A DNA stretch of 64,000 bases from an uncultured Christensenellaceae bacterium (GTDB lineage Bacteria; Bacillota; Clostridia; Christensenellales; Aristaeellaceae): the NCBI GenBank assembly GCA_905234985.1, contig CAJOJQ010000001.1, positions 1 through 64,000 on the forward strand, in the 5' to 3' direction. The position numbers were made by a program, and so were the translations under genes. The notes beneath the pieces are model-generated. The model was not told the origin of the DNA. It worked only from the letters and a program-made list of their open reading frames with translations, and made no database searches. Positions 6,469 to 63,501 of this stretch are shown piece by piece. Within the stretch, counting starts at the first letter, position 1, and every line of letters starts with the position of its first letter.

Positions 6469-7935
6469 ATGAGTACAAACAAAACGATGATGCAGTATTT
6501 TGAATGGTATTTACCCAACGACGGTTTATGGTGGAAACGATGCGCCGCCAAGGCGGTGAACCTGCGCGACCTTGGCATTACCCAGGTGTGGCTGCCCCCG
6601 GCTTATAAGGGCACCAGCCAGGAGGACGTGGGATACGGCGTTTACGATATGTATGACTTAGGAGAATTCGATCAGAAAGGAACGGTGCGCACCAAGTACG
6701 GCACCAAAGAAGAATACCAGGAGGCAATCAGCGCGTTCCACAAGGCCAATATCCAGGTTTTCGCGGACATCGTGCTGAACCACCGCATGGGCGGCGACGG
6801 GACGGAGATCGTGAGCGCGGTGAGCGATTCGCCCGAAAACCGCAATATCCAGATCGACGACGCGCAGAAGGTGAAGGTCTGGTCCCTGTTCAAATTCCCC
6901 GGCCGAAATGGAAAGTACAGCAAATTCACCTGGAATCATACCCACTTTACCGGCACGGACTGGGACGAAAACACCCAGACCATGGACCGTATCTTCCGCT
7001 TCACCGGGAAGAAATGGGCCAGGAACGTGGACCCGGAAAAAGGCAATTTTGATTATCTGATGGGCATGAATGTGGACATGCAAAACCCCACCGTGGTGCG
7101 GGAAACCCAGAAATGGCTGGAATGGTACATCAATGAAACCCATTTGGACGGCCTGCGCCTGGACGCGGTGAAGCATATCTCCTTCCCCTTCTACGGAAAG
7201 CTGCTAAAATATATCCGGGGCGCCACCGGCATGGAGATTCCCGCCGTGGGCGAATACTGGAGCGGCGAACTGGACCGCCTGCTGCACTACCTGGACATGG
7301 TGGACAATGAAATGTCCCTGTTCGACGTGGCGCTGCATTATAATTTCTTCGACGCTTCCCAGGGCCGCCGCAACTTGAAAAATATTTTTGACAATTCCCT
7401 GGTGCAGGCCCGGCCCCAGAACGCCGTCACCTTCGTGGACAACCACGACACCCAGTACGGCCAAAGCCTGCAGTCCTTTGTGGAGGACTGGTTCAAGCCC
7501 CTGGCCTACAGCCTGATCCTGCTGCGGCAGGACGGCGTGCCCTGCGTTTTCTATTCGGACTATTACGGCAATCCCGTCCAGAATCGGCCCCTGGTGCCGA
7601 ACTTAGGCAAGCAAATCAAGGTGCGCCGCTGGTACGCCTACGGGGAACAGCAGGACTACTGCCTGAACGACCATGTGATCGGCTGGGTGCGGCGCGGGGA
7701 CATCGAACATGAAAACTCCGGCGTGGCCGTGGTCATGAGCGACGGGGACGCGGGCACGATTCCCATGGAAATGGGCGCGGCCTTCGCGGGGGAAGCGTTC
7801 TATGACGTGATGGGGATGTGCCACGAACCGGTCATCATCGACAAAAAGGGCGTCGGCGCGTTCCAGACGGCTCCCCGGGGCGTTTCCATCTGGGTGCGGG
7901 AAAAGGCCTTTGAGGATATCATCATCAACGAGTGA
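6469..7935 (+). CDS. Cytosolic alpha-amylase, GH13 family
   Basis: An endo-acting alpha-1,4-glucan hydrolase that would cut intracellular glycogen or imported maltodextrin. The 488 residues match the liquefying Bacillus-type GH13_5 amylases, beginning with MMQYFEWYLPNDG. The catalytic triad is visible: nucleophile D232 (GLRLDAVKH), acid/base E262 (VGEYW) and D327 (VDNHDTQ). There is no signal peptide, so the enzyme should stay inside the cell, as with Escherichia coli AmyA. A C-terminal beta domain follows the barrel from about residue 400. It has its own promoter and a structured leader. The next gene starts 22 bp downstream. Confidence 0.9.
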   Translation: MSTNKTMMQYFEWYLPNDGLWWKRCAAKAVNLRDLGITQVWLPPAYKGTSQEDVGYGVYDMYDLGEFDQKGTVRTKYGTKEEYQEAISAFHKANIQVFADIVLNHRMGGDGTEIVSAVSDSPENRNIQIDDAQKVKVWSLFKFPGRNGKYSKFTWNHTHFTGTDWDENTQTMDRIFRFTGKKWARNVDPEKGNFDYLMGMNVDMQNPTVVRETQKWLEWYINETHLDGLRLDAVKHISFPFYGKLLKYIRGATGMEIPAVGEYWSGELDRLLHYLDMVDNEMSLFDVALHYNFFDASQGRRNLKNIFDNSLVQARPQNAVTFVDNHDTQYGQSLQSFVEDWFKPLAYSLILLRQDGVPCVFYSDYYGNPVQNRPLVPNLGKQIKVRRWYAYGEQQDYCLNDHVIGWVRRGDIEHENSGVAVVMSDGDAGTIPMEMGAAFAGEAFYDVMGMCHEPVIIDKKGVGAFQTAPRGVSIWVREKAFEDIIINE

Positions 7936-7957
7936 GCGGCGGGAAAGGAAGAAAAGT

Positions 7958-9028
7958 ATGAGCGGCATCATCATCCGCCCCTTCCGTCCGGAGGACGAGG
8001 ACGGCATTTTGGCCGTCTGGAACGCCTGCGTGGGCGCGGGGGACGTGCTGTACTATCCTTTGACCCGGGAATACTTTGAACGGAAGCTGCTGCGCGGCGA
8101 CGGGTGCGAAGCGGAAAACCTGCTGATCGCGGAAACAGACGGGCAAATCGAGGGCCTCATCCACGGCGTGGCCCCGGAAACCTTTCCTCTGGCGAAACCG
8201 GGCAGCGCTTACTTGACCTGCATCTTGACCGCCCCCGCGTACCGGGGCCGGGGCATCGGAAAAGCTCTGCTTTCCGCCCTGAAAGCCCGAATGAAGGAAA
8301 GAAAAGCCCATACCCTGTATATTTCCAGCCTGAACCCCGTGAATCTGGACTGGCGCATCCCCGGCACCCCGGGCCACGACCACAACAACATGCCGGGGCT
8401 GGACGCCGGCTGCGCGGGGTACGGCTTTTTTCCGGCTCAGGGCTTTCAAGAAAAGTACCGGGAAGTGAGCCTGTACATGAACCTTGCGGATTACCGCATG
8501 CCAGCCGAAATTCCGGAAATCCAAAACTGTCTGGCGGACGAGGGCATTTATACCGGGCCTTACGACGCATCCTGGAACTGCGAATTTGACGGCATGTGTG
8601 ATCGGGTGGGCAGCGATTACTGGCGGGACGTGCTGCGCACCGAAACCGCCGCCTGGAAAGCAAATCAGCCCAACGCCGACCCCCGCTTCTGGGCGGACGG
8701 CATACGCCCCGCAGGCCCCCGGCCCCTGCTCACTGCCGTGCATGACGGGCACATCGTGGGCTTTACCGGTCCGGTGGACAGGCAGCAAAGCGGTCGGGGT
8801 TGGTTCACCGGCATCTGCACCGATCCGCTGTTTGAGCGCCGGGGCGTCGCCACCGTGCTGTTCAACCTGCTGATGCAGGCGTTCGTGGAAGAAAAAGCGG
8901 CCTTCACCACCCTGTTCACCGGGGCGGACAGCCACGCCCAGAAGGTGTACCGCCGGGCCGGGCTGCGCCCCGTGCGGGAATTCGCTTTGATGGCGCTGGA
9001 TTTGACGGACAAGGAGGAAGCGCAATGA
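7958..9028 (+). CDS. Tandem GNAT acetyltransferase
   Basis: About 356 residues containing two GNAT folds. The first (about 1-170) has the acetyl-CoA loop RGRGIGKAL at residues 96-104. The second (about 185-355) has RRGVATVLF near residues 295-303. Two-domain GNATs usually keep one catalytic and one structural or substrate-binding copy. Substrate cannot be read from sequence. I start at the ATG at 7958 behind GGAAAGGAAG; an upstream in-frame ATG at 7910 lies inside the amylase gene. The stop overlaps the next ATG (ATGA), so it is translationally coupled to the PIG-L-like protein, hinting at a joint acetylation/deacetylation role (inference). Confidence 0.82.
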   Translation: MSGIIIRPFRPEDEDGILAVWNACVGAGDVLYYPLTREYFERKLLRGDGCEAENLLIAETDGQIEGLIHGVAPETFPLAKPGSAYLTCILTAPAYRGRGIGKALLSALKARMKERKAHTLYISSLNPVNLDWRIPGTPGHDHNNMPGLDAGCAGYGFFPAQGFQEKYREVSLYMNLADYRMPAEIPEIQNCLADEGIYTGPYDASWNCEFDGMCDRVGSDYWRDVLRTETAAWKANQPNADPRFWADGIRPAGPRPLLTAVHDGHIVGFTGPVDRQQSGRGWFTGICTDPLFERRGVATVLFNLLMQAFVEEKAAFTTLFTGADSHAQKVYRRAGLRPVREFALMALDLTDKEEAQ

Positions 9029-48927: not shown

Positions 48928-50817
48928 TCATTTCAGGCGGATCACGGTGGTCAGTTCCTTGGTAAAGGCGGCACGGAGGGCAAGGGTCTGATTTTTAACG
49001 CCGTAAGCCGCCGAATACTCGCAGGAAGTGAGCCGCAGCTTTTCCGGCGGCGTGGAAAGCTCCATGGAAAAATCTCCGGCGAAAACGCGGGATTCCTTGG
49101 GCGCAAGCGACGCCCCTGTCCCCGGACCGAACACGAAGCAGGCTTCCCCTTCCGCCTCCGAGGTCAGTTCGTCCCGGATCGTGATCGTCTGGCCGCCGTC
49201 AAATTCCAGCGTACGGCGGTGAATCACGGGCTGGTAGCCGTCCTGGGTCATCACCAGCGCAGCGCCGCCGTCCTTTTCCTGATAATCCACCAGCACGGCG
49301 CTGGCCTTTCTGCCCCACAGGAAGGCGCCCAGCATTTCGGATTGATTCTTTCCGCCCACGCACACGGTATTGTGATTGCGGGTCTCCCGGAAGGCGTTGC
49401 GGCTCTTGAGGTCGCAGTGATAGATACACGTGCCGGGGTCAATGAGCAGAGGCTTCCCCTCAAAATACACCTGAAAGCTCAATGCGTCCGCATGCCCGTG
49501 GGCGCAGATGCTGCCAAAGCCTAAGGCGGCGTGATCCACGCCAATGAGCAGCTTCCGGTCCGCGCTGCGCAGGATGGTGTTGCCCCCCTGCCGGTAGCAG
49601 CAGTATTGGGGCGGTACATACCGTTCTTTTTTCGCCGCCCGCGCCCATTCTTCCTCCGTGAAGAGCCAGCGCAGGGTTTCGCAGCTGAGGGCGTTCAGGT
49701 CCGTATACTGTTTGTCCAGGAGCAGACTGAGCATACCCAGCACATACCGGTAATGGCCCGTGTGATCGTATGCCGCGTCCGGGCCGGAAATGCCCGCCAA
49801 ATCCAGGATCTTCCCCTCGTCGTCGTCCCCGAAAATCACGATTTCCCCGTAATCGCCCATGCAGTCTTTTACATACCGGCCCATTTTGTCCAGCATGTCC
49901 TGCCAAAGGTTGGGCACGGCCAGCCCGTTCTTTTTCAGCAGCCGCAGCATCAGGCCCATGGCTTCCATATAGAAGGACTGGTAGTGCAGGGACTGTTCTT
50001 TGTTTACCCCGTCCGGTTCGTTCTGCAAAGGCAGCTCCCGGGTCAGGATGTTCACCGCCAGGTCGATCCAGGGCTGATGATGGAACAATATGCCGCTGTG
50101 GCCGATGGCGCAGGCCTCCACGATCAGATGGTTGTTGGCGGAGGAATAGCGGGAATAGTGGCTGGCGATGTAATCCGTCATGTTCAGGACGCCGGTTTGC
50201 AGCGCTGTCAGCAGCGTTTTCGGCGCCGGCGCCTTTGTCCCCGCCAGGAAGCCATAAGCATAAATCCAGTTGACGCACCGGATGGCGATTTCCATCACGC
50301 TGGTCCAGGAAATGCCATGGAGGAAGGGATTCTTTTCGTTCCAGTCCGCAAACAGGTCCGTAAGCTCCTTCAGGTATTTTTCGTCGCCGGTGGCGGCGTA
50401 ATCCTTCGCCAGCAGGGCGAACTGAAAATGGCGGTTCAGCTCCCAGTTGGTGCGGGCGTCGCCGATCTCGTCCTTCTGCTTGTATTCCAGATCGTAGGAA
50501 AAAGTGTCCGGCCATTCCTTATCCGTCTGGAAGCCCGCGTTCCAGCGCTTTTTGTACTGTTCGTAATCCGCCCCGGACAGCAGATGAATGGCGGTATTGC
50601 AGGCAAAGGCCGTATTGCCGCCGTTCAGACGCAGACGGCCCGCGTCGGCCTTCAATCCGGCCAGAGCGGGGCGGAACACGGCGCTTGTGATGGGCCGGCT
50701 CTTTCCCTTGAACGCCGCTTGCTCCCGCTTTTCAATGCTCTTTTGGGAGAGGCGCCAGACCACTTCCGGAATACTCATCGCTTTCAATCGCCTGATCAGC
50801 CAGGAAATATTGGGCAT
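48928..50817 (-). CDS. Heparinase II/III family polysaccharide lyase-like protein
   Basis: 629 residues from the ATG at 50817 (site GGAGGAGAGG). An alpha-toroid N-terminal half (NNHLIVEACAIGHSGI, about residues 210-225) and a beta-sandwich C-terminal half (FGSICAHGHADALSFQVYF) as in Hepar_II_III proteins, which cleave uronate-containing glycans by beta-elimination. No signal peptide is seen, as usual for members inside biosynthetic clusters. Next to an AlgD-like dehydrogenase, it could trim or edit a mannuronate polymer, as AlgL does in alginate loci (inference). Confidence 0.85.
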   Translation of the reverse strand: MPNISWLIRRLKAMSIPEVVWRLSQKSIEKREQAAFKGKSRPITSAVFRPALAGLKADAGRLRLNGGNTAFACNTAIHLLSGADYEQYKKRWNAGFQTDKEWPDTFSYDLEYKQKDEIGDARTNWELNRHFQFALLAKDYAATGDEKYLKELTDLFADWNEKNPFLHGISWTSVMEIAIRCVNWIYAYGFLAGTKAPAPKTLLTALQTGVLNMTDYIASHYSRYSSANNHLIVEACAIGHSGILFHHQPWIDLAVNILTRELPLQNEPDGVNKEQSLHYQSFYMEAMGLMLRLLKKNGLAVPNLWQDMLDKMGRYVKDCMGDYGEIVIFGDDDEGKILDLAGISGPDAAYDHTGHYRYVLGMLSLLLDKQYTDLNALSCETLRWLFTEEEWARAAKKERYVPPQYCCYRQGGNTILRSADRKLLIGVDHAALGFGSICAHGHADALSFQVYFEGKPLLIDPGTCIYHCDLKSRNAFRETRNHNTVCVGGKNQSEMLGAFLWGRKASAVLVDYQEKDGGAALVMTQDGYQPVIHRRTLEFDGGQTITIRDELTSEAEGEACFVFGPGTGASLAPKESRVFAGDFSMELSTPPEKLRLTSCEYSAAYGVKNQTLALRAAFTKELTTVIRLK

Positions 50818-50889
50818 GACGCCTCTCCTCCGATCTAATCGCATGTTCCTGTTTCTTTGGATAATCAATCGAGAAACGGTTTGCGAGGG

Positions 50890-51119
50890 GGATTGTCAAG
50901 GGGCGCTCCCCTTGACTGTAATCCGCACCGGCGGCGTGTACGCCGGGAGGACGGAAAATTTCTGTAAGGAGCGTAGACGACTGAAAGAAATTTTCCAACC
51001 TTGCGGTTTTTCCGCCCGGAAATCTCAAAGAGATTTTAGGAAAAACCGTGCGGGGGGCACGCGGGGGGTATGCAATACCCGCCCGCGCATTACTGCGAAG
51101 CCGCAGGCTGAGCAGTAAT
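50890..51119. other. Highly structured intergenic region: six consecutive hairpins
   Basis: Between the AlgD-like stop and the heparinase start lie six inverted repeats in a row: GTCAAGGGG/CCCCTTGAC at 50895-50916 (extended by GGATT/AATCC); CCGGCG/CGCCGG at 50928-50946; GGAAAATTTC/GAAATTTTCC at 50953-50996; CGGTTTTTCC/GGAAAAACCG at 51004-51048, enclosing AAATCTC/GAGATTT; CGCGGGGGGTAT with its complement at 51060-51087; and ATTACTGC/GCAGTAAT at 51089-51119. Together they cover almost every base. No start codon with a good site and no long frame is present. It may be a structured RNA, a complex attenuator or a repeat-derived element. Confidence 0.75.
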
Positions 51120-52493
51120 TTAGAACTCAGTCTTTGCCATATCACGGTCCAGCTTCATTTCCTGGGCGGGATTGTGGTTGATGTTGCCCCAACTGATGCC
51201 CTCGTAGTTGCCCGCGTAGTCCACTTCCTTGAACTGGCGCACCAGGTCCACGATGTACTTGTTGGGGTACTTTTCGGGCACGTTCGCGAATTCCTTTTCT
51301 TTGTTGGTGATCACCAGCACGTCGCAGGCGCTGCACACGGCGTCCAAATCATCGGAAATGATGTCGTGCAGGTGGGGCAGCTTGGCGGCGATAAAGTCCG
51401 CGTTGGTGCCGGTGAGCTGGGACACGCGCACGTTCTTATCGTAGATATGGATCTCGTAGCCTTTGCCGTACAGCACCTCGATCACGTCCACGATGGGGCT
51501 GTTGCGCAGGTCGTCGGTGCCCGCCTTGAAGCTCAGGCCCAGCACGCCCACCTTCCGGCGGCCCTTGCTTTCGATGATGTCCACGGCGATTTTCTTTTGC
51601 AGCTCGTTGGAGGGGTCGATGGCGCTGATTACCGGGGTGGTCACGTAGTAATCGTGGGCCAGGGTGCGCAGGGCCTTGGAATCCTTGGGCAGGCAGGAGC
51701 CGCCGTAGGCGAAGCCGGGCTTGAAGTAATAGGGGGAAATGTTCAGCTGCTTGTCCTTGCAGAAGATTTCCATCACCTTGTGGCTGTCGATGCCCAGGGC
51801 CTTGCAGATATTGCCCACCTCGTTGCCGAACACGATTTTCAGGGCGTGGAAGGTGTTGTTCACATACTTCATGATTTCCGCCACTTCGATGTCGGTGGAA
51901 ATGAATTCGGCGGGGATATCCTTGTACAGTTCCCGGAACTTGGCTTCGGCGATGGGGCTGTCGGTGCCGATGAGGGTCAGGGGGGGATTCATGTAGTCCT
52001 GCACCGAAGTGCCTTCCCGCAGGAATTCGGGGTTGGAAACCACGGTGAAGTCCTTGCCCCGCACCTTGCCGGAGGCTTCCGCGATGATTTCGCCCACTTT
52101 CTTGTTGGTGCCGGGCAGCACGGTGCTGCGGATGGCGACGATGTGGAAATCGTTCTTGTCCCGCAGGGCCTGGCCGATCTGCTTGGCTACATTGTAGATG
52201 TAATTCAGGTTCAGGTGCCCTTCCTTGCTGCTGGGCGTGCCCACCACGATGAAGGAAACTTCGGAATTGTGTACGGCGTAGTGGTAATCCATGGTGGCTT
52301 CCAGCAGGCCCTTGTCGTGGGCTTCCTTCACCAGCTCGTCGATTTCCGCCTCGATGATGGTGGGCTTGCCCTGGTTGATCAGGTTCACCTTGTTTTCGGA
52401 CACGTCGTTGCCGATCACGTGGTGGCCCAACTTCGCGCAGCACGCCGCGCCCACGCAGCCCACGTAGCCCAAACCGAAAATACTGATGTTCAT
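51120..52493 (-). CDS. algD: GDP-mannose 6-dehydrogenase-like nucleotide-sugar dehydrogenase (AlgD type)
   Basis: 457 residues from the ATG at 52493 (MNISIFGLGYVGCVG). An NAD-dependent four-electron dehydrogenase that makes a sugar-nucleotide uronate. Active-site cysteine C267 (GGSCLPKD) is present, along with NPEFLREGTSVQDY and LGLSFKAGTDDLR. Those two motifs and the ending EGISW resemble Pseudomonas AlgD (GDP-mannose 6-dehydrogenase) more than UDP-glucose dehydrogenases, which usually read FKPNTDDMR. The upstream neighbour manC makes GDP-mannose, the AlgD substrate. The product would be GDP-mannuronate. UDP-glucose or UDP-ManNAc as substrate is not excluded. Confidence 0.78.
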   Translation of the reverse strand: MNISIFGLGYVGCVGAACCAKLGHHVIGNDVSENKVNLINQGKPTIIEAEIDELVKEAHDKGLLEATMDYHYAVHNSEVSFIVVGTPSSKEGHLNLNYIYNVAKQIGQALRDKNDFHIVAIRSTVLPGTNKKVGEIIAEASGKVRGKDFTVVSNPEFLREGTSVQDYMNPPLTLIGTDSPIAEAKFRELYKDIPAEFISTDIEVAEIMKYVNNTFHALKIVFGNEVGNICKALGIDSHKVMEIFCKDKQLNISPYYFKPGFAYGGSCLPKDSKALRTLAHDYYVTTPVISAIDPSNELQKKIAVDIIESKGRRKVGVLGLSFKAGTDDLRNSPIVDVIEVLYGKGYEIHIYDKNVRVSQLTGTNADFIAAKLPHLHDIISDDLDAVCSACDVLVITNKEKEFANVPEKYPNKYIVDLVRQFKEVDYAGNYEGISWGNINHNPAQEMKLDRDMAKTEF

Positions 52494-52527
52494 TCCCCAT
52501 ACCTCCATTTATATATTTTTAATTTTT

Positions 52528-53859
52528 TTATTTGATAATCAATGCTTCCGGCAGCGGATAGATGGTTTTATCCTTGGCGCTGATTTCCTGGCCCATCTGC
52601 ACCTCGATGGCGTACATATCCGTATCGGCGATGATGATATGCTTGGTGCCCGCGGGGATGGTGATGCTGTTGCCTGTGCGGAGCTGCTGTTCCACGCCGC
52701 CTAAGATGATCCGCCCCTGGCCGGATACCACGGTGAATATCTCCTGCCGCATTTCGTGGGCGTGGTAGGTCATGCGCTTTCCGGCGCGCAGATGCACCTT
52801 GATGGTCATGGAATGGGGCTGGGCGTCGATCACCGTGTAGGTGCCCCAGGATTTTTCGGCAAAGCGCGCGTCCAAGTCGATCTTTTCCACATAGGGCTTC
52901 ATGGCGCCGCTGCGCTCCTTATCGGAGACCAGGATGCCGTCGCCGCTGGCGGCCACCACCAGGTCCCTGCAGCCCATGACCAGAATGGGGATTTCCAATT
53001 CGTTCACCACATGCACGTTTTCGCAGGTTTCGTCTAAGATCACGTCGCCCATGGTGGGTTCGGGCATGACCTCGGCCATCATGTTCCAGCTGCCCACGTC
53101 CTTCCATTCGCCCGCGTAGCGCATCACCTGGATGGACGGCTCTTTTTCCACCACCGCGTAGTCGAAGGAGATTTTGGTCAGGGTCTCATACTTGCCGAAC
53201 AGGTCCTTGTAGTCGGTGAAATCTATCATGCTGTGGGCTTTTTCGATCAGGTATTTCAGCCGGAAGGCGAATACGCCCGCGTTCCACAGGGCTCCCTGGG
53301 CGATGTACAGCTTGGCGGTTTCCTTGTCCGGCTTTTCCTTGAATTCCTTCACGGGACTCACGGTTTCCCCGCCCTGCGGAATGATGTAGCCGTACTTTTT
53401 GCTGGGCACGGTGGGTTCGATGCCCATGAGGGTCAGGCTGGCGGCGTCGCCCTCCACCAGCTTTTCAAGCCTTGTCAGGGCTTCAAAATAGCTGTTGTTC
53501 ACATAGGGGTCCACCGGGCACACGATCACAGGCTCCTCCGGATCCACGCCCAGCACGTCCTGCAAATAGACCGTCGCCAGGGCGATGGCGGGGAAAGTGT
53601 CCCGCCGGGCAGGTTCCACGCAGATGGACACGGCGTCCCCCAACTGATTGCGGATGGAGGAAACCTGGGTTTTGCTGGTGGCGACCGTCACCTTGGCCCC
53701 CGGGTCCACCGCGGTGATCTGGCGATACACCCGCTGCACCATGGATTCGTTATTGCCTTGGGCGTCCCGGAAAATCCGAATGAACTGCTTAGAACGCACG
53801 TCGTTGGACAGGGGCCACAGACGTTTTCCCGATCCGCCGGACAAAAGGATAATATTCAT
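52528..53859 (-). CDS. manC: Mannose-1-phosphate guanylyltransferase (with cupin domain)
   Basis: 443 residues. The nucleotidyltransferase domain has the pyrophosphorylase motif LLSGGSGKRLWPLS (residues 5-18) and FKEKPD. The C-terminal 110 residues form a type II mannose-6-phosphate isomerase-like cupin (MTYHAHEMRQEIFTVVSGQG), as in ManC/AlgA enzymes. It makes GDP-mannose from mannose-1-phosphate and GTP, and perhaps isomerises fructose-6-phosphate. Placed directly before the AlgD-like dehydrogenase. A phosphomannomutase is not in the window. Confidence 0.92.
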   Translation of the reverse strand: MNIILLSGGSGKRLWPLSNDVRSKQFIRIFRDAQGNNESMVQRVYRQITAVDPGAKVTVATSKTQVSSIRNQLGDAVSICVEPARRDTFPAIALATVYLQDVLGVDPEEPVIVCPVDPYVNNSYFEALTRLEKLVEGDAASLTLMGIEPTVPSKKYGYIIPQGGETVSPVKEFKEKPDKETAKLYIAQGALWNAGVFAFRLKYLIEKAHSMIDFTDYKDLFGKYETLTKISFDYAVVEKEPSIQVMRYAGEWKDVGSWNMMAEVMPEPTMGDVILDETCENVHVVNELEIPILVMGCRDLVVAASGDGILVSDKERSGAMKPYVEKIDLDARFAEKSWGTYTVIDAQPHSMTIKVHLRAGKRMTYHAHEMRQEIFTVVSGQGRIILGGVEQQLRTGNSITIPAGTKHIIIADTDMYAIEVQMGQEISAKDKTIYPLPEALIIK

Positions 53860-57458: not shown

Positions 57459-60104
57459 TTATAAATCATCAAACAGGTTCTTTTTTCCGCTCTTGCCGTG
57501 GGCGGGGGCCGCGTTTTCGCCGTCCTTGCCCTGCGGCTGATCCCAGCTGCCGTCCAGGCCCATGCGCACCAATTCCTCGGTGATTTCGGCGTCGCTTCTG
57601 ATGAGCGGCTCGGCGGCCGCCTCCTCGTCCATCAGATCGTCGAACACGTTGCGGTTGGCTTTGATCACGGCGGCTTCGGGCTTGATATCCTTCAAGGGCT
57701 GGGGGGCTTTCGGCTTTTTCTCGATGCCCAGGCCCCAGAAGCCTCCGCCCGGTTTCTTTTTCTTCGCGGGTTCCGTTTTTGCCTTCTTTTCGGCGGCGGC
57801 CTTTTCCTTGACCGGCGCTGCCTTGGGCTTATCGGCCTTTGCGGGCTTTTCAGCCTTTGCGGGCTTTTCGGCCTTTTTGGATGCGGAGGCCTTGTCTTTT
57901 TCAGCCTTCGCGGGCTTTTCTTTCTTGGTTGTTTTTTCAGCCTTCCCGGTCTTGCCGGACGAATCCTCGAACAGGAATCCGAACAGTCCGCGCTTCTTTT
58001 GGGGCTGTTTAGGCGGCAGGGCGACAGGCTTCACAGGCTCCGCCGGTGCGGAGGAGACCTGTTCGAGCGGGCTGAGGGCGGTTTCCTCGCCCGCGGGGAT
58101 AGGCGGCGCTTCCTCCGGGCTGATGATTTCCGGCTCGGGGAGGGAGACCGCCTGCTCCGCTTCCTCCGGGCTGATGATTTCCGGTTCGGGGAGAGAGGCC
58201 GCCTGCTCCGCTTCCGGCGGAGTGTCGGCGGGGGGCTGGGGCCGTTCCTCCGGGCTGATGATTTCCGGCTCGGGGAAGGAATCGGCCTGAGGAGGCTGTT
58301 CCGCTTCCGTGGGGACGTCCACAGGCGGCAGGGGCCATTCCTCCGGGTTGACGGCTTCCGCTTTGGGGAAGGCGGCGGCCTGAGGCGCCTGCTCCGCTTC
58401 CGAGGGGATATCCACAGGCGGCAGGGGCCATTCCGCCGGGTTGACGGCCTCCGGTTTGGGGAAGGAGGCGGGCTGGGCCGGTTCCGGCGCGGTCGTCCGC
58501 GCGGGCGCTTCCCGCATGGCGGGCGGCAGATCCATGTCCTCCGCGTTCCCGGTGGCTTCCGTGGCTTTTTGCTTGTTGATCAGCGCCAGCAGGGCGGCGT
58601 CGTTCTCTTTGCTTTCCGTCTTCTCGGTCTGGGTCTTTTCGACCTTCGGCCCTTTCTTCTTCTTTTTCTTTTTCTTGGACGAGGGCTTCTTCTTTCCGGC
58701 GGCCGCGTCCTTCTTCTCCGCGTCCTTTTTGCCTACGCCCATCATCACGTTCTTGGAGGTCTGCACCGCGTTGACGATGCAGCCCAGCACACGGGTGCCG
58801 GATTTATCCAGCTTTTCCAGGGCGGCCTGGATTTCGGGAATGGAAGCCGTATCGTACCGGGCCACGAACAGCACGGCGTTGGCCACCTGGTTCAGGCTCA
58901 GGGTTTCGGATTCCTTGCCTACGGGCGGCGCGTCGATGATGATGAAATCGTACCGCTCCTTGAGCTGGGTGATCATCTCCACGATGGTGCTGTCCAAATA
59001 AATCAGGTTATGCTCCATCACCATGGGCAGCAGGTCCAGATAGCCGGTCATGGTGGTGATGGCGTCGTTTATGGTGATTTCGCCCCGGTACAGGGCGTTC
59101 AGGGAACGGTCGTAATCAATATTATTCAGGAACAGGGAACCCAACATGGGGTTTTTATAGTCGAAGTCGATCAGCAGGGTATGCTTCTCCATATCCGAAA
59201 GCTCGATGGCCAGGCTGGCGGCCACCGACGTGCGGCCTTCCTGACCGGTTGCGGACGTGATATAGAAGCAATGGCATTTATCCTTGGACCCCATGCGGTT
59301 TCGCAGGATGTATGCCGCCGCCGAAAAGCTTTGCGCCACGTCGGACGACGCTTTATCGTCGGTGACCAGGATGGAGGATCTGTCCCTAAAAAACGCGCTG
59401 TCGTGGGGGATAATACCGATGGTTTCCAGGCCGAACACCGTTTCCACGTCTTTTACGTTGATCAGCGTGGGACGCATCATCAGCTCGATCACGGCGAAGC
59501 CCATACCGGCGGCGAAGCCCAGCACCGGCAGGATCATCCAGGTTTTGATGTTGGCCGTGCGGGAGTTGATCAACACTGCCACCGGTTCGTTGAAAATGCG
59601 CAGGCGGCCCACCTGCAAAAGCTGGGACAAAAGATCGTTGGCGGCGTTGATGATATCCTGCCACAGCGCCAGGCCTTCCTCGCCGTGATCCCACGTCAGG
59701 CGCATGGTGATGATGTTGGTATCGCTGTACTGGGCAATGGACAGCCCGTTGCGGATATCCGAAGCGGAAACGCCCAAAAGCTGTTGGTCGTTAATGACCT
59801 GATAAAGCAGCCGGTCGCTGCGGAGCAGATAGTAAACCGTATCGTACAGCTCGGTAGCCATGGTCAAATCGGTCCGATTGGGCGCGATGCTGTTGCCGGA
59901 ATACCGGCCCTGGCTGTCTACCGGGGCAATGATGAAGGAACCGTCGATCTGGTAATCCTCAACGGCGGACTGCACGTAGTTCATACCGGACAAAAGCAAA
60001 CCGAAAACCAAACCCATCAGGGTAAGGGAGACGATGATTTTCCAGCGCTTCTGCACCGCGAACAGCAAATCGCTGATGCGCAGCTGAATACCGACTGTAT
60101 TCAA
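57459..60104 (-). CDS. Wzz/BY-kinase fusion with degenerate Walker A and long Tyr-free tail
   Basis: 881 residues. Residues 1-215: a chain-length determinant (Wzz-like) domain with membrane helices near 24-42 and 193-213 around an outer loop. Residues 245-450: a BY-kinase-like domain with Walker A TGQEGRTS (286-293; the usual Lys is R291), Walker A' LLIDFDYKNP and Walker B FIIIDAPP. Residues 455-881: a low-complexity tail with a poly-Lys block (KKPSSKKKKKKKK), five imperfect copies of a Pro/Glu repeat (PEAVNPAEWPLPPVD; PEPEIISPEE), Ala/Lys stretches and short hydrophobic motifs (RGLFGFLFED, NVFDDLMDEE, NLFDDL at the end). The tail has no tyrosine, so the usual autophosphorylated Tyr cluster is absent. 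Probably controls polymer length as a scaffold or pseudokinase. Confidence 0.85.
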   Translation of the reverse strand: MNTVGIQLRISDLLFAVQKRWKIIVSLTLMGLVFGLLLSGMNYVQSAVEDYQIDGSFIIAPVDSQGRYSGNSIAPNRTDLTMATELYDTVYYLLRSDRLLYQVINDQQLLGVSASDIRNGLSIAQYSDTNIITMRLTWDHGEEGLALWQDIINAANDLLSQLLQVGRLRIFNEPVAVLINSRTANIKTWMILPVLGFAAGMGFAVIELMMRPTLINVKDVETVFGLETIGIIPHDSAFFRDRSSILVTDDKASSDVAQSFSAAAYILRNRMGSKDKCHCFYITSATGQEGRTSVAASLAIELSDMEKHTLLIDFDYKNPMLGSLFLNNIDYDRSLNALYRGEITINDAITTMTGYLDLLPMVMEHNLIYLDSTIVEMITQLKERYDFIIIDAPPVGKESETLSLNQVANAVLFVARYDTASIPEIQAALEKLDKSGTRVLGCIVNAVQTSKNVMMGVGKKDAEKKDAAAGKKKPSSKKKKKKKKGPKVEKTQTEKTESKENDAALLALINKQKATEATGNAEDMDLPPAMREAPARTTAPEPAQPASFPKPEAVNPAEWPLPPVDIPSEAEQAPQAAAFPKAEAVNPEEWPLPPVDVPTEAEQPPQADSFPEPEIISPEERPQPPADTPPEAEQAASLPEPEIISPEEAEQAVSLPEPEIISPEEAPPIPAGEETALSPLEQVSSAPAEPVKPVALPPKQPQKKRGLFGFLFEDSSGKTGKAEKTTKKEKPAKAEKDKASASKKAEKPAKAEKPAKADKPKAAPVKEKAAAEKKAKTEPAKKKKPGGGFWGLGIEKKPKAPQPLKDIKPEAAVIKANRNVFDDLMDEEAAAEPLIRSDAEITEELVRMGLDGSWDQPQGKDGENAAPAHGKSGKKNLFDDL

Positions 60105-60158: not shown

Positions 60159-61916
60159 TTAGGATTCTTCCTCCGCCGCGGCGCGTTTTTTGCGCCGGCG
60201 GACGATGATGATCACTACCACGACCGCCACGATCACCACCAGGGCCGCGACGCCCGCGATGATGATGTAATGCAGCAGGTAAGAGGTCTGCAGGTTGATG
60301 TTCTGCACTTCGGCGATATCCCTGACCTGGATATCCAGGCGGGTGGATCTGTCGTCTTCACGGATGATATAGTAATTTCCCGCCTCCAGATCGGTGAACA
60401 TCAGCGGCGCGCCGGTGGTGGTCCATACGCGGATCAGGGTGCCGCTGGCGTCGTACAGCGCCAGGTTCACGTCGGCCACCTGGATATCGCTGAATTCGTC
60501 CGTCAGGCCGATGGACACGCGGATCATGTGATTGAACAGGTTCAGCTGCGCTTCGCCTTGCCCGTCGATGCGTCCGTCCCCGCTGACCTGGAAGGAATAA
60601 ACGGATTTATCCAGCACGTAATGCTCGTTGGAGCTGGTCTGCGTGATCTGATAGGTGACGCCCTTTTCCAGAGAATCCAGCAGGATATCGCCCGAACCGT
60701 TGGTGACGGCCTCGATGGCGGGATCGGCGCTGCCCTGCTTGGAAACGGAGAATGTGGCGCCCCGAATGGCGCGGGTGGGGTAGAGTTCATCCTTCAAGGA
60801 GATCCGGATTTTTGTGCGAACGCTGGAAAGGGCGTTGGCGGGGGGCAGGGAGCCGGTTTTCTTTTCCACTGACACTTCCAGCTCCGTTTCCAGGCCGGTG
60901 TAGTATTCCGGGATCACGCGCTGGCGGAGCAGGTAAGGCCCTAAATACACTTCCTCGCTTTCGCCGCTGCCGTTTTCGCCGATGATGATTTCGCTCACCG
61001 TCTGGCCCACTCTGTACCGCAGGGTGCCGTCGCTGGTGATGATGTTTTCCGCCGCGATCACGTCGAATTCCGCGCCCGAGAGGGGCTGGCCCGTTTCGGC
61101 GTCGGTCATCCGCAGGCGGATGATGTTCCGGGAGGGATAGATGGGCACGCGCACCACCAGGGGGTCGGCCCAGTCGTAGGTTTCGGTCAGGTGGAATTCC
61201 ACGTTGTCTGCCGCGTCGTAGCCCTCGGGTTCCGTCAGCTCATGCAGCTCATAGTCGCCAAGCGTCAGTTTTTCCGGCATATAGAAGGTGCCGGACTCGG
61301 TGGTTTCAAAGAAGCGGAAGGAGATCCTCTCGGGGTAGTACACGTTGAGTACCTGCAGGGCATGGCTTTCGCCGTACAGCTCAAACTGCACGCCCTCTTC
61401 CTTGACGGACCTGTCGGTTTCCGCGTCCACCATGATCACGTAGACGGCGGATTTCATGCCCATATCCGGCTCGTCGCCCGGCCCCTCGCCCATACCGTTG
61501 CCGCCGCCGTCGCCGCCGCCCCCGCCGCCGGAGCCGGCGCCGGGCAGATCAGGCGTGGGGGTGGGAGAAGGCGTGGGGGTGGGCGTCAGGGTGCTGGTTT
61601 CCGTGGGCGTGCTGAGGGGATCAATGCCCTCCGACACGTACCAGCCGTCGCTGCCGCCTCCGCCGCCCCCGTCGGGGAACCAGACGAAGGCGGTGGGTTC
61701 CGGGGTTTCGGTGGCGTCGATATCGCCATTGTCGGAATCGGCGTAGGTGTTGCCCGCTTCGGGGTCCTTGAGGGTATATTCGGGAATATGCACAAGGTAA
61801 AGGCCGAGCAGCAGGATCACGAGCATCAGAATAAGCAGCAGGGCGCTGAACATATCGGACGCCGGCTGCCAAAAATTGATTTCTTCGTCTGTGCCGCGCT
61901 TTCGGTTTTTCTTCAT
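60159..61916 (-). CDS. MotB-like stator subunit with SpaA-type ectodomain and second membrane anchor
   Basis: 585 residues, and unlike any described stator B subunit I know. The N-terminus (INFWQPASDMFSALLLILML) copies the MotB/ZorB/TolR first helix: W16, then D21 where MotB has its proton-carrying Asp (YADFMTAMM). After helix 22-44 comes an outside linker rich in Pro, Thr and Gly (about 45-155). Four SpaA/Cna-B-like beta-sandwich units follow (about 158-545; e.g. TGQPLSGAEFDVI, GNYYIIREDD). A second helix (550-572) and a basic cytosolic end (RRRKKRAAAEEES) close the protein. There is no OmpA-type peptidoglycan-binding domain. It begins 19 bp after the MotA/ExbB-EAL gene. ATG 61916, site AGGGAG. 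The stator role is inferred. Confidence 0.78.
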   Translation of the reverse strand: MKKNRKRGTDEEINFWQPASDMFSALLLILMLVILLLGLYLVHIPEYTLKDPEAGNTYADSDNGDIDATETPEPTAFVWFPDGGGGGGSDGWYVSEGIDPLSTPTETSTLTPTPTPSPTPTPDLPGAGSGGGGGGDGGGNGMGEGPGDEPDMGMKSAVYVIMVDAETDRSVKEEGVQFELYGESHALQVLNVYYPERISFRFFETTESGTFYMPEKLTLGDYELHELTEPEGYDAADNVEFHLTETYDWADPLVVRVPIYPSRNIIRLRMTDAETGQPLSGAEFDVIAAENIITSDGTLRYRVGQTVSEIIIGENGSGESEEVYLGPYLLRQRVIPEYYTGLETELEVSVEKKTGSLPPANALSSVRTKIRISLKDELYPTRAIRGATFSVSKQGSADPAIEAVTNGSGDILLDSLEKGVTYQITQTSSNEHYVLDKSVYSFQVSGDGRIDGQGEAQLNLFNHMIRVSIGLTDEFSDIQVADVNLALYDASGTLIRVWTTTGAPLMFTDLEAGNYYIIREDDRSTRLDIQVRDIAEVQNINLQTSYLLHYIIIAGVAALVVIVAVVVVIIIVRRRKKRAAAEEES

Positions 61917-61935
61917 TTACCGGACTCCCTGTTGA

Positions 61936-63501
61936 TTAAGTCTTGTTGATTACGTCTTCAAATTCCTTGATGGAAATGGGCTTGGAAAGATAGAAGCCCT
62001 GGCCTTCGGTGCAGCCGCACTTGCGCAGCATGTTCATCTGCTCCATGTTTTCGATGCCCTCGGCGGACAGCGTCCGCTGCAGATTGCGGGCCTGATCGAA
62101 AATGGAATTGAGCATGCCCTGGTTCACCTTCCCGCCGAAGCGGCGCAGGTCCAGCTTCATGGCGTCGCAGTTCACGTTTTCGATGGAATTCATGGCGATG
62201 AAATCGCCGTCGAAGCCGTCCATCACCACGCGGAAGCCGTTCTGGCGCAGCTTTTCTTCGGTTTCGATCACCACATGGCTGGACTGGATATAGGCGTTTT
62301 CCGCGATTTCGATTTCCAGATAAATGGGGGGGATGCGGTATTTTTTCAGCATTTCCGAGAAGAACTCGGCAATGTCGATGGCCAGGATGTCGGTTTTTGT
62401 CACGTTGATGGAAATGGGCACCGGGCGGAAGCCCGTATCCACCCATTTGCGGATGGTGATGCACACCTGCTCCCAGATGTACTGGTCCAGCTTGGTGATG
62501 TAGCCGTTGCTTTCCAGAATGGGAATGAAAACGGCGGGGGAAACCATGCCCAATTTTCCGTGGCTCCAGCGCACCAGCGCTTCCGCGCCCACCATTTTGC
62601 GGGTGTTCAGGTCAAAGCGCGGCTGGAGATAGAAGATAAATTCGCCGTTCTTCAGGCCCTGCAGGATCTGGGGCATCAAAATCTGCTCGTTGCCGGTGTT
62701 CTGGGCCGGAATGGAGGGATTGGCCGCACCGCCCGCCACGGTAAAGGTGCCGCTCTTGGGCAGGCGCTCCAGCAGCTGGGTGATCTGCTTCATTTCCCGG
62801 CGTTCCCGGTAGCGCAGTTGCTCCTCCACGGGCGGGATCACGTTTTTGTGGAACTCGTCGATGAACAGGCCCAAATTCCGAATCATCATGTTCCAGGTGA
62901 TGCGGTAAATAATGTTGAACACAAGGGACAGAATAACGCCCGCGATGGACGTATAGAAAGCCACGCGGATACCGGCCAGCAGCGTCTGCACGCTGGACAG
63001 GGCGGCGTTCACGCTGCTGAACCCGATGCCCTGAATACCGACGATCAAACCGATGAAGGTACCGAGGATGCCAAGACCGGTCAGGGTGCCGGGAAGCTGC
63101 TGCACCACGTTCTGCCAGCTTTTCAGGCCTAAGATATCTTCGTTGATGTAATCCTCGATATCCGACAGCACCTGGCCGGAATCCCGCTGGGCCTGCACCT
63201 TTTCCTGGTACTCGCGGAACTGTTCGTCCATCACCCGCTGATGGAAGAATTCTTCGATCTGCACCATCACGGACCAGGTGGAGCTGGTCTGCACCTCCAG
63301 TGCCCGTTCGATGTTTTCCAGGCCCGTTTCAAAGGCGCGGTAATACTGGATCACCGGGAACACGCCCAAAAGCACGCCTAAGAAAACGATGCCTTCCATG
63401 ATCACGATGAAAACGGTGGATATCTCATCCGGCGCATAAGCGGTGAGAATCACACCGCCTATGAGGATAAAAATAACCAGAAAATAAATCAGTCTCCTCA
63501 T
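61936..63501 (-). CDS. MotA/TolQ/ExbB proton-channel domain fused to an EAL domain
   Basis: 521 residues. Helices 1-2 (about 4-23 and 27-52), a cytosolic stretch (55-130), and helices 3-4 (about 137-160 and 181-205) give the MotA topology. The region LPGTLTGLGILGTFIGLIVG (136-155) and AFYTSIAGVILSLVFNI (181-197) match the MotA/TolQ/ExbB channel signature, closest in style to ZorA-like members. From about 265 to the end there is an EAL domain: E307-A-L (GAEALVRW), ISINVTKTD, LEIEIAEN, KLDLRRFG, AEGIEN and GQGFYLSKP. The catalytic DDFG is D428-G-F-D431, so one metal-binding Asp is gone and c-di-GMP binding without hydrolysis is likely. First gene of the polysaccharide operon. Confidence 0.82.
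   Translation of the reverse strand: MRRLIYFLVIFILIGGVILTAYAPDEISTVFIVIMEGIVFLGVLLGVFPVIQYYRAFETGLENIERALEVQTSSTWSVMVQIEEFFHQRVMDEQFREYQEKVQAQRDSGQVLSDIEDYINEDILGLKSWQNVVQQLPGTLTGLGILGTFIGLIVGIQGIGFSSVNAALSSVQTLLAGIRVAFYTSIAGVILSLVFNIIYRITWNMMIRNLGLFIDEFHKNVIPPVEEQLRYRERREMKQITQLLERLPKSGTFTVAGGAANPSIPAQNTGNEQILMPQILQGLKNGEFIFYLQPRFDLNTRKMVGAEALVRWSHGKLGMVSPAVFIPILESNGYITKLDQYIWEQVCITIRKWVDTGFRPVPISINVTKTDILAIDIAEFFSEMLKKYRIPPIYLEIEIAENAYIQSSHVVIETEEKLRQNGFRVVMDGFDGDFIAMNSIENVNCDAMKLDLRRFGGKVNQGMLNSIFDQARNLQRTLSAEGIENMEQMNMLRKCGCTEGQGFYLSKPISIKEFEDVINKT

Follow-up and report, generated by a model that had tools for sequence, protein, structure and literature searches.

In both Zorya and flagellar Mot motors, an Asp of the B subunit packs against a ring of Ser and Thr residues on the A subunits to form the ion path, as set out in the accessible part of PMC11890865. 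According to the same partial text, ZorA also carries a cytoplasmic tail and ZorB a peptidoglycan-binding domain. Flagellar stators are acted on in addition by the cyclic diguanylate (c-di-GMP) proteins YcgR, MotI and FlgZ (PMC12564702, accessible part), and in LapD, a degenerate EAL receptor, loop 6 (the switch loop) is altered (PMC3032553, accessible part). Here we describe a two-gene system from an uncultured Christensenellaceae bacterium (assembly GCA_905234985.1) that shares features with each of these. Gene A (61936..63501, minus strand) encodes a 521-residue protein with a PF01618-type channel and a degenerate EAL domain. Gene B (60159..61916, minus strand) encodes a 585-residue protein with a MotB/ZorB-like first helix, a linker, SpaA domains and a C-terminal membrane helix. 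Both lie in the window, by which we mean the whole 64,000-nucleotide stretch of contig CAJOJQ010000001.1 that was analysed. From profile matches and conserved residues we have little doubt that A and B are a stator-type channel pair, and we put at about even the chance that they form a 5:2 ion motor linked to Wzx/Wzy-type polysaccharide assembly and fitted with its own c-di-GMP clutch. The arrangement is not described in the open-licence literature among the matches listed, a body of text to which subscription papers mostly do not belong, and the accessible parts of PMC12505986 and PMC12564702 make no mention of it.

A stator-type pair and its closest relatives

The first-pass annotation of this DNA had placed the two genes 19 bases apart on the minus strand and picked out W16 and D21 in the first helix of B, all of which we find as described. 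It had also called A a channel of the MotA/TolQ/ExbB type bearing an EAL domain, and here too the profiles agree: PF01618 matches residues 91-201 at 34.9 bits (cut-off 22.9; Pfam E 1.4e-8), where its absence had been named as grounds for refutation, and PF01618 and EAL models both match all 33 A proteins scanned, in one open frame (Pfam, E <= 0.01). The first 250 residues (62752..63501, minus strand) comprise membrane and cytoplasmic helices whose nearest solved relatives by sequence are ZorA proteins. All six PDB rows that a profile of this half matches at E <= 0.01 are ZorA-type chains, with 8vvn_C the best (E 6.7e-19) and 8qyd_A also among them (E 3.1e-13). The polar Ser/Thr ring residues of 5:2 motors are present in the last two membrane helices. 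T148 in the third helix (63058..63060, minus strand) aligns with ZorA T147 and S185 in the fourth (62947..62949, minus strand) with ZorA S184, the ZorA numbers having been counted by hand from the profile alignment; both residues are invariant in the 36 A proteins. The adjoining T184 is found in 34 of the 36, with Ser in locus L008 and Ala in L026. A single-chain AlphaFold2 model of A, built with 33 sequences, has the expected helices and strands (mean predicted local distance difference test score, pLDDT, 81; predicted template-modelling score, pTM, 0.48).

The first membrane helix of B (residues 16-42; 61791..61871, minus strand) holds W16 and D21, which align with the Trp and Asp of ZorB. 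W16 occurs in all 35 B proteins and D21 in 34 of them. We assign B to the stators because it matches the PADLOC ZorB1 model (E 1.1e-4) and because a profile of B N-termini has ZorB/MotB-like chains as its top PDB matches (8vvi_A, E 1e-5; 8vvn_B, E 2.3e-5; 8qyd_F, E 7e-4), with Trp and Asp aligned; nine later rows stand at E 0.06 and worse.

The pair carries the sequence hallmarks of 5:2 motors, yet it fits none of the named members that we tested, since no OmpA-like domain, defence partners or flagellin were found. For both channel parts the closest relatives by sequence among solved structures are the types I and II Zorya proteins ZorA and ZorB, which share the Asp and Thr/Ser positions and, like our pair, have an extra cytoplasmic part on the A subunit, the ZorA tail (accessible part of PMC11890865). 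In A, however, an EAL domain takes the place of that tail, and in B the SpaA domains and a second membrane helix take the place of the peptidoglycan-binding domain of ZorB (again from that part of PMC11890865). The pair also sits in a polysaccharide operon, with no defence partners (ZorC, ZorD or ZorE) among the ten neighbours scanned. Membership of Zorya was rejected, as the NCBIfam ZorA models score 33-63 bits against cut-offs of 100-750. With the flagellar stator MotA/MotB the pair shares PF01618 in A and the Trp and Asp of helix 1 in B, but it differs in the fusion of EAL to A and in having no OmpA-type or peptidoglycan-binding Pfam match in B, either in the window or in the 33 B proteins scanned. 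We rejected a flagellar stator on the lack of an OmpA domain in B and of any flagellin match in the genome, which is 92.7% complete. The earlier statement that flagellar and Zorya partners are missing thus agrees with what was found in the genome and among the ten neighbours. YcgR, MotI and FlgZ offer a further parallel, in that c-di-GMP acts on a stator (PMC12564702, accessible part), but they are separate PilZ-type proteins, whereas in A the domain belongs to the subunit itself.

To follow the pair through other genomes we scanned one genome per species (84,980 genomes) with peptide patterns taken from the window protein. Of the 46 loci obtained, 35 (L003-L037) code for a complete A and 11 for the EAL domain only; because of the origin of the patterns, 35 is a lower bound skewed towards near relatives. 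Three loci (L003, L004 and L023) are 95-99% identical. The relatives come from Ruminococcaceae, Oscillospiraceae, Faecalibacterium, Lachnoclostridium, Brotaphodocola, Blautia and others. B adjoins A in every one of the 35, although in L003 it is cut by the contig end, so the finding that would have told against the first reading, that the two genes are never together, did not arise. B was detected in 32 of the loci when the window B was the BLAST query, and with another B as query in L022, L032 and L033; compared with their closest counterpart, these last three B proteins are 91, 63 and 59% identical. The two genes share 4 bases in 23 of the 34 loci measured, if the first possible start is taken. 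A divergent locus from the class draw (L147, in genome G306) has A at 38% identity, then B, then a gene for a Wzz/bacterial tyrosine kinase (BY-kinase) protein. As the pair recurs in 35 further loci and in L147, its pairing is not chance. For the main alignments we used 33 of 36 A and 33 of 35 B sequences, leaving out the near-identical L003 (A only), L011 and L023; two smaller alignments of 15 and 18 sequences were picked for spread.

Pairs of this type are rare. Not counting the query genome, 1 of 290 genomes drawn from the class has the full A type, as do 0 of 199 from the order, 0 of 147 from the family of L027 and, among the matches listed, 0 of 298 from the phylum, where other genomes gave EAL proteins. 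The match counted in the class draw scores 232 bits, and none of the weaker channel matches in the class and order draws exceeds 91 bits. Four of these weaker matches were inspected by eye, L089 and L090 from the class draw (together with the strong match L088) and L111 and L116 from the order draw, and all four are without an EAL domain. A further stator-type pair, overlooked in the first-pass annotation, is encoded elsewhere in the genome, outside the window (L124, G000:C60, 6184-8782, minus strand): one protein is ZorA-like and has a long C-terminal part, the other is MotB-like. By eye we take the C-terminal end of the latter to be an OmpA-like domain, and the neighbouring gene to be mnmE. 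Of the 199 other genomes drawn from the order, 12 gave a channel match scoring in the range of this second pair; all 12 belong to the same family, and the two that we inspected hold a pair of the same kind.

The EAL domain of A

Residues 279-508 of A (61978..62667, minus strand) have an EAL fold. PF00563 matches them with an E value of 1.3e-53 (182 bits), and the EAL half of the model superposes on PaMorA 4rnj_A (Foldseek E 6.0e-18, TMt 0.89). The first-pass annotation was right to place an EAL domain on A but overlooked its degeneracy. Catalytic EAL domains have a DDFGTG motif, the second Asp of which is a metal ligand. In A this Asp is replaced by G429 (62215..62217, minus strand), and the position is never Asp in the 36 A proteins (Gly in 33, Asn in 2, Ser in 1); among 40 control EAL domains from outside the family, a non-random set of near sequence hits from 39 of 40 loci, from which matches shorter than 190 residues were dropped, 39 have Asp here. 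The signature of catalytic EAL domains, both Asp residues of the motif, is accordingly absent from A (second Asp in 0 of 36). Because this residue is missing throughout, we think it very probable that the domain is no longer enzymatic.

Other EAL residues have been retained across the 36 proteins: E307 (36), R311 (35), N366 (36), E401 (29), D428 (35), K449 (35), D451 (35), E481 (33) and Q501 (35). It looks, then, as if the fold has been kept while catalysis was lost, with ligand residues persisting in most members. The domain is perhaps a c-di-GMP receptor, and on balance we favour binding of c-di-GMP in most members of the family. Like LapD and FimX, A combines an EAL fold with an altered active site, and it matches the LapD NCBIfam model weakly (E 1.6e-9) as well as FimX structures. 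It differs from both in being joined to an ion channel, in having no GGDEF or HAMP domain and in keeping its EAL and ExLxR motifs mostly intact, and it matches catalytic EAL domains better than these receptors.

GGDEF matches number 47 in the genome. A gene on the strand of A, some 6 kb away from it, encodes a 1226-residue membrane sensor (L123, 9922-13602, minus strand) whose C-terminal end reads by eye as HD-GYP-type. In L022 and L034 (9389-9964, plus strand) A is preceded, at a distance of 36 bases and apparently in the same operon, by a short gene in which we read a GGDEF motif by eye. In 5 of 32 loci the GGDEF/EAL-type genes ahead of A belong to one cluster, a lead only, which is perhaps the background of GGDEF-rich genomes; the survey leaves out L019, L021 and L030, whose A was removed by an overlap rule, and antisense frames sometimes displaced real genes in it.

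The polysaccharide operon downstream

A seems to be the head of an operon, since the genes on its other side read by eye as housekeeping genes, one of them presumably an NAD(P)H-hydrate repair enzyme. Directly downstream of B, where the first-pass annotation had seen an exopolysaccharide locus, we find one: a Wzz/BY-kinase fusion (57459..60104, minus strand) is followed by a VanZ-like membrane protein (PF04892; 56694..57434, minus strand), a Wzy-type polymerase/ligase (PF04932; 55076..56629, minus strand), a glycosyltransferase, a GDP-mannose-type pyrophosphorylase and a nucleotide-sugar dehydrogenase. Farther on the same strand are three more group-1 glycosyltransferases, one of family 2 and an acyltransferase (ten proteins scanned). 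The stretch from 48928 to 53859 (minus strand) holds the pyrophosphorylase, the dehydrogenase and a heparinase/alginate-lyase-like protein, contents suggestive of a polymer of uronic acids that has a lyase of its own.

This neighbourhood recurs. Co-occurrence with Wzz/BY-kinase genes in other genomes, proposed at the outset as a check, holds in all 34 loci whose contig continues (that of L003 ends first), 33 of them detected by BLAST with the window protein and the last, L020, by BLAST with others at 49% identity. Relatives of the VanZ-like and Wzy proteins are found in 28 and 25 of the 35 loci, counts in which some contigs end early. From the constant linkage to Wzz/BY-kinase we argue that the work of A and B lies in polysaccharide assembly, and consider it likely that the pair is dedicated to polysaccharide. 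The kinase itself varies. In the window protein the Walker A Lys is Arg and a Lys/Arg-rich tail of 443 residues has no Tyr, so that a BY-kinase of this type is perhaps not an autokinase. The same replacement is found in 5 of 33 BY-kinases covering the site (the window, L004, L005, L023 and L037), and the Lys is kept in the other 28, on which we rejected the idea that the kinase is dead in general.

A candidate mechanism and its alternatives

If the even-chance reading given above is correct, A and B would assemble in the membrane as a member of the 5:2 ion-motor superfamily, with A5B2 as the probable composition, and ions passing D21 of B would turn the A ring round the B dimer. B would be held by its second membrane helix and SpaA stalk and not by peptidoglycan. 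Five EAL domains would form a cytoplasmic ring that in most members binds c-di-GMP and no longer hydrolyses it, and c-di-GMP would serve as a built-in clutch, likely the control of the A ring in most members. The EAL ring would then act on the Wzz/BY-kinase assembly to power or time chain length or export, although we find it doubtful that torque is what is delivered there.

Which part could move is suggested by B. Behind its first helix B has a Gly/Pro/Thr-rich linker that is predicted to be disordered (about residues 45-154; 61455..61784, minus strand); in 31 of the 35 B proteins, those other than L022, L034, L026 and L028, where the end motif is not in the right place, it measures 58-117 residues and is rich in Gly, Pro, Ser, Thr, Asp, Glu and Asn. 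Then come the four SpaA/prealbumin-like domains that the first-pass annotation had counted (about residues 155-545; 60282..61454, minus strand), seen as four PF17802 stretches at E <= 1 and three at E <= 0.01, and SpaA matches all 33 B proteins scanned. The protein ends in a membrane helix with a basic tail (60186..60278, minus strand) and no LPXTG-like motif. Hydropathy places this second membrane segment (about residues 547-577) in all 35 B proteins, a few barely over the threshold. An AlphaFold2 model of B from 33 sequences (mean pLDDT 77, pTM 0.56) shows helices at 16-42 and, C-terminally, at 547-584; between them lie residues 53-152, where pLDDT is below 50, and a long beta part. Given the linker and the second membrane segment, both ends of B are probably held in the membrane, and the part free to turn or signal may thus be the cytoplasmic, EAL-bearing A ring rather than SpaA. 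The earlier proposal that torque moves or stretches a SpaA surface domain fares poorly for the same reasons.

Several observations weigh against the motor with a c-di-GMP clutch. Foldseek with the A model gave EAL structures and no stator in the best 50 of 1346 matches, so the channel half has the support of sequence profiles and not of a fold search. The MotB-like character claimed for B at first pass stands on D21 and on the ZorB1 and PDB profile matches, but no MotB/TolR/ExbD-type Pfam model matches the window B (E <= 1) or the 33 B proteins (E <= 0.01). The B protein of L026 has Ala at position 21. This locus (7199-8869) is a natural D21-to-Ala variant; in its A protein T184 is likewise replaced by Ala, and position 429 is Ser. 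One reading is that the locus is a decaying or regulatory copy. The distance-matrix correlations, 0.85-0.93, come without a background control. Binding of c-di-GMP cannot be general, because L147 is additionally without E307, N366, E401, D428, K449 and Q501, nearly all the ligand residues, and L037 has lost R311, D428, K449 and Q501. The EGVE base, E481, is kept in 33 of 36 A proteins, and by the rule given in the accessible part of PMC12900916 an EAL domain that keeps it is of uncertain activity rather than inactive. Rfam models matched nothing in the window, nor in the 20 kb that start at position 60000, so neither stretch yielded a c-di-GMP riboswitch. Contact between the A ring and the BY-kinase, finally, is a guess from gene order.

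It is also possible, if rather doubtful, that A and B are an ion-energised sensor or gate and not a torque motor, in which the SpaA stalk would feel polymer, wall or surface and open the channel while the EAL ring signals to the BY-kinase. The flexible linker and two membrane anchors of B fit tension sensing better than torque, the EAL domain looks receptor-like and the kinase is a constant neighbour, but the pair has retained the ion-path signature of driven motors. Less likely still is a SpaA adhesin or stalk extended or retracted on the cell surface by the motor. Its folds do resemble pilin and adhesin repeats, with Foldseek E values down to 3e-18, but whole-chain TM scores are below 0.3 of the query, so the resemblance is one of repeats; the disordered linker also speaks against it, as do the C-terminal membrane segment and the lack, in all 35 B proteins, of an LPXTG-like motif within the final 60 residues. 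On that lack we rejected a sortase pilin. A membrane-anchored phosphodiesterase that lowers c-di-GMP beside the polysaccharide machine seems to us very unlikely: A has the EAL fold, most signature residues and a widely kept EGVE base that the PMC12900916 rule, in its accessible part, would leave as uncertain, but loop 6 is changed, the second DDFGTG Asp is gone from every member, on which we rejected catalysis, and L147 is without most ligand residues. An orphan Zorya-type defence module is scarcely credible, for although the channel-half matches in PADLOC, NCBIfam and the PDB are to ZorA and ZorB, all fall under the NCBIfam cut-offs, no ZorC/D/E-like protein was seen among ten neighbours and no OmpA domain in 33 B proteins, and the polysaccharide neighbours are constant.

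Returning to the motor with a c-di-GMP clutch, we tentatively suggest that the pair could be a separate branch of rotary ion motors, with the clutch on the ring, energising Wzx/Wzy assembly in Gram-positive gut bacteria. Relatives in Faecalibacterium, Brotaphodocola and Lachnoclostridium, some of them entered as strains, are at hand, and D21, T148, S185 and the EAL ligands are open to single-residue tests. Few outputs are known for 5:2 motors, and if this reading is true polysaccharide assembly would be added to them. A would then be a stator whose own subunit carries a second-messenger domain, and gut Clostridia would have a direct route from c-di-GMP to the control of capsule or exopolysaccharide.

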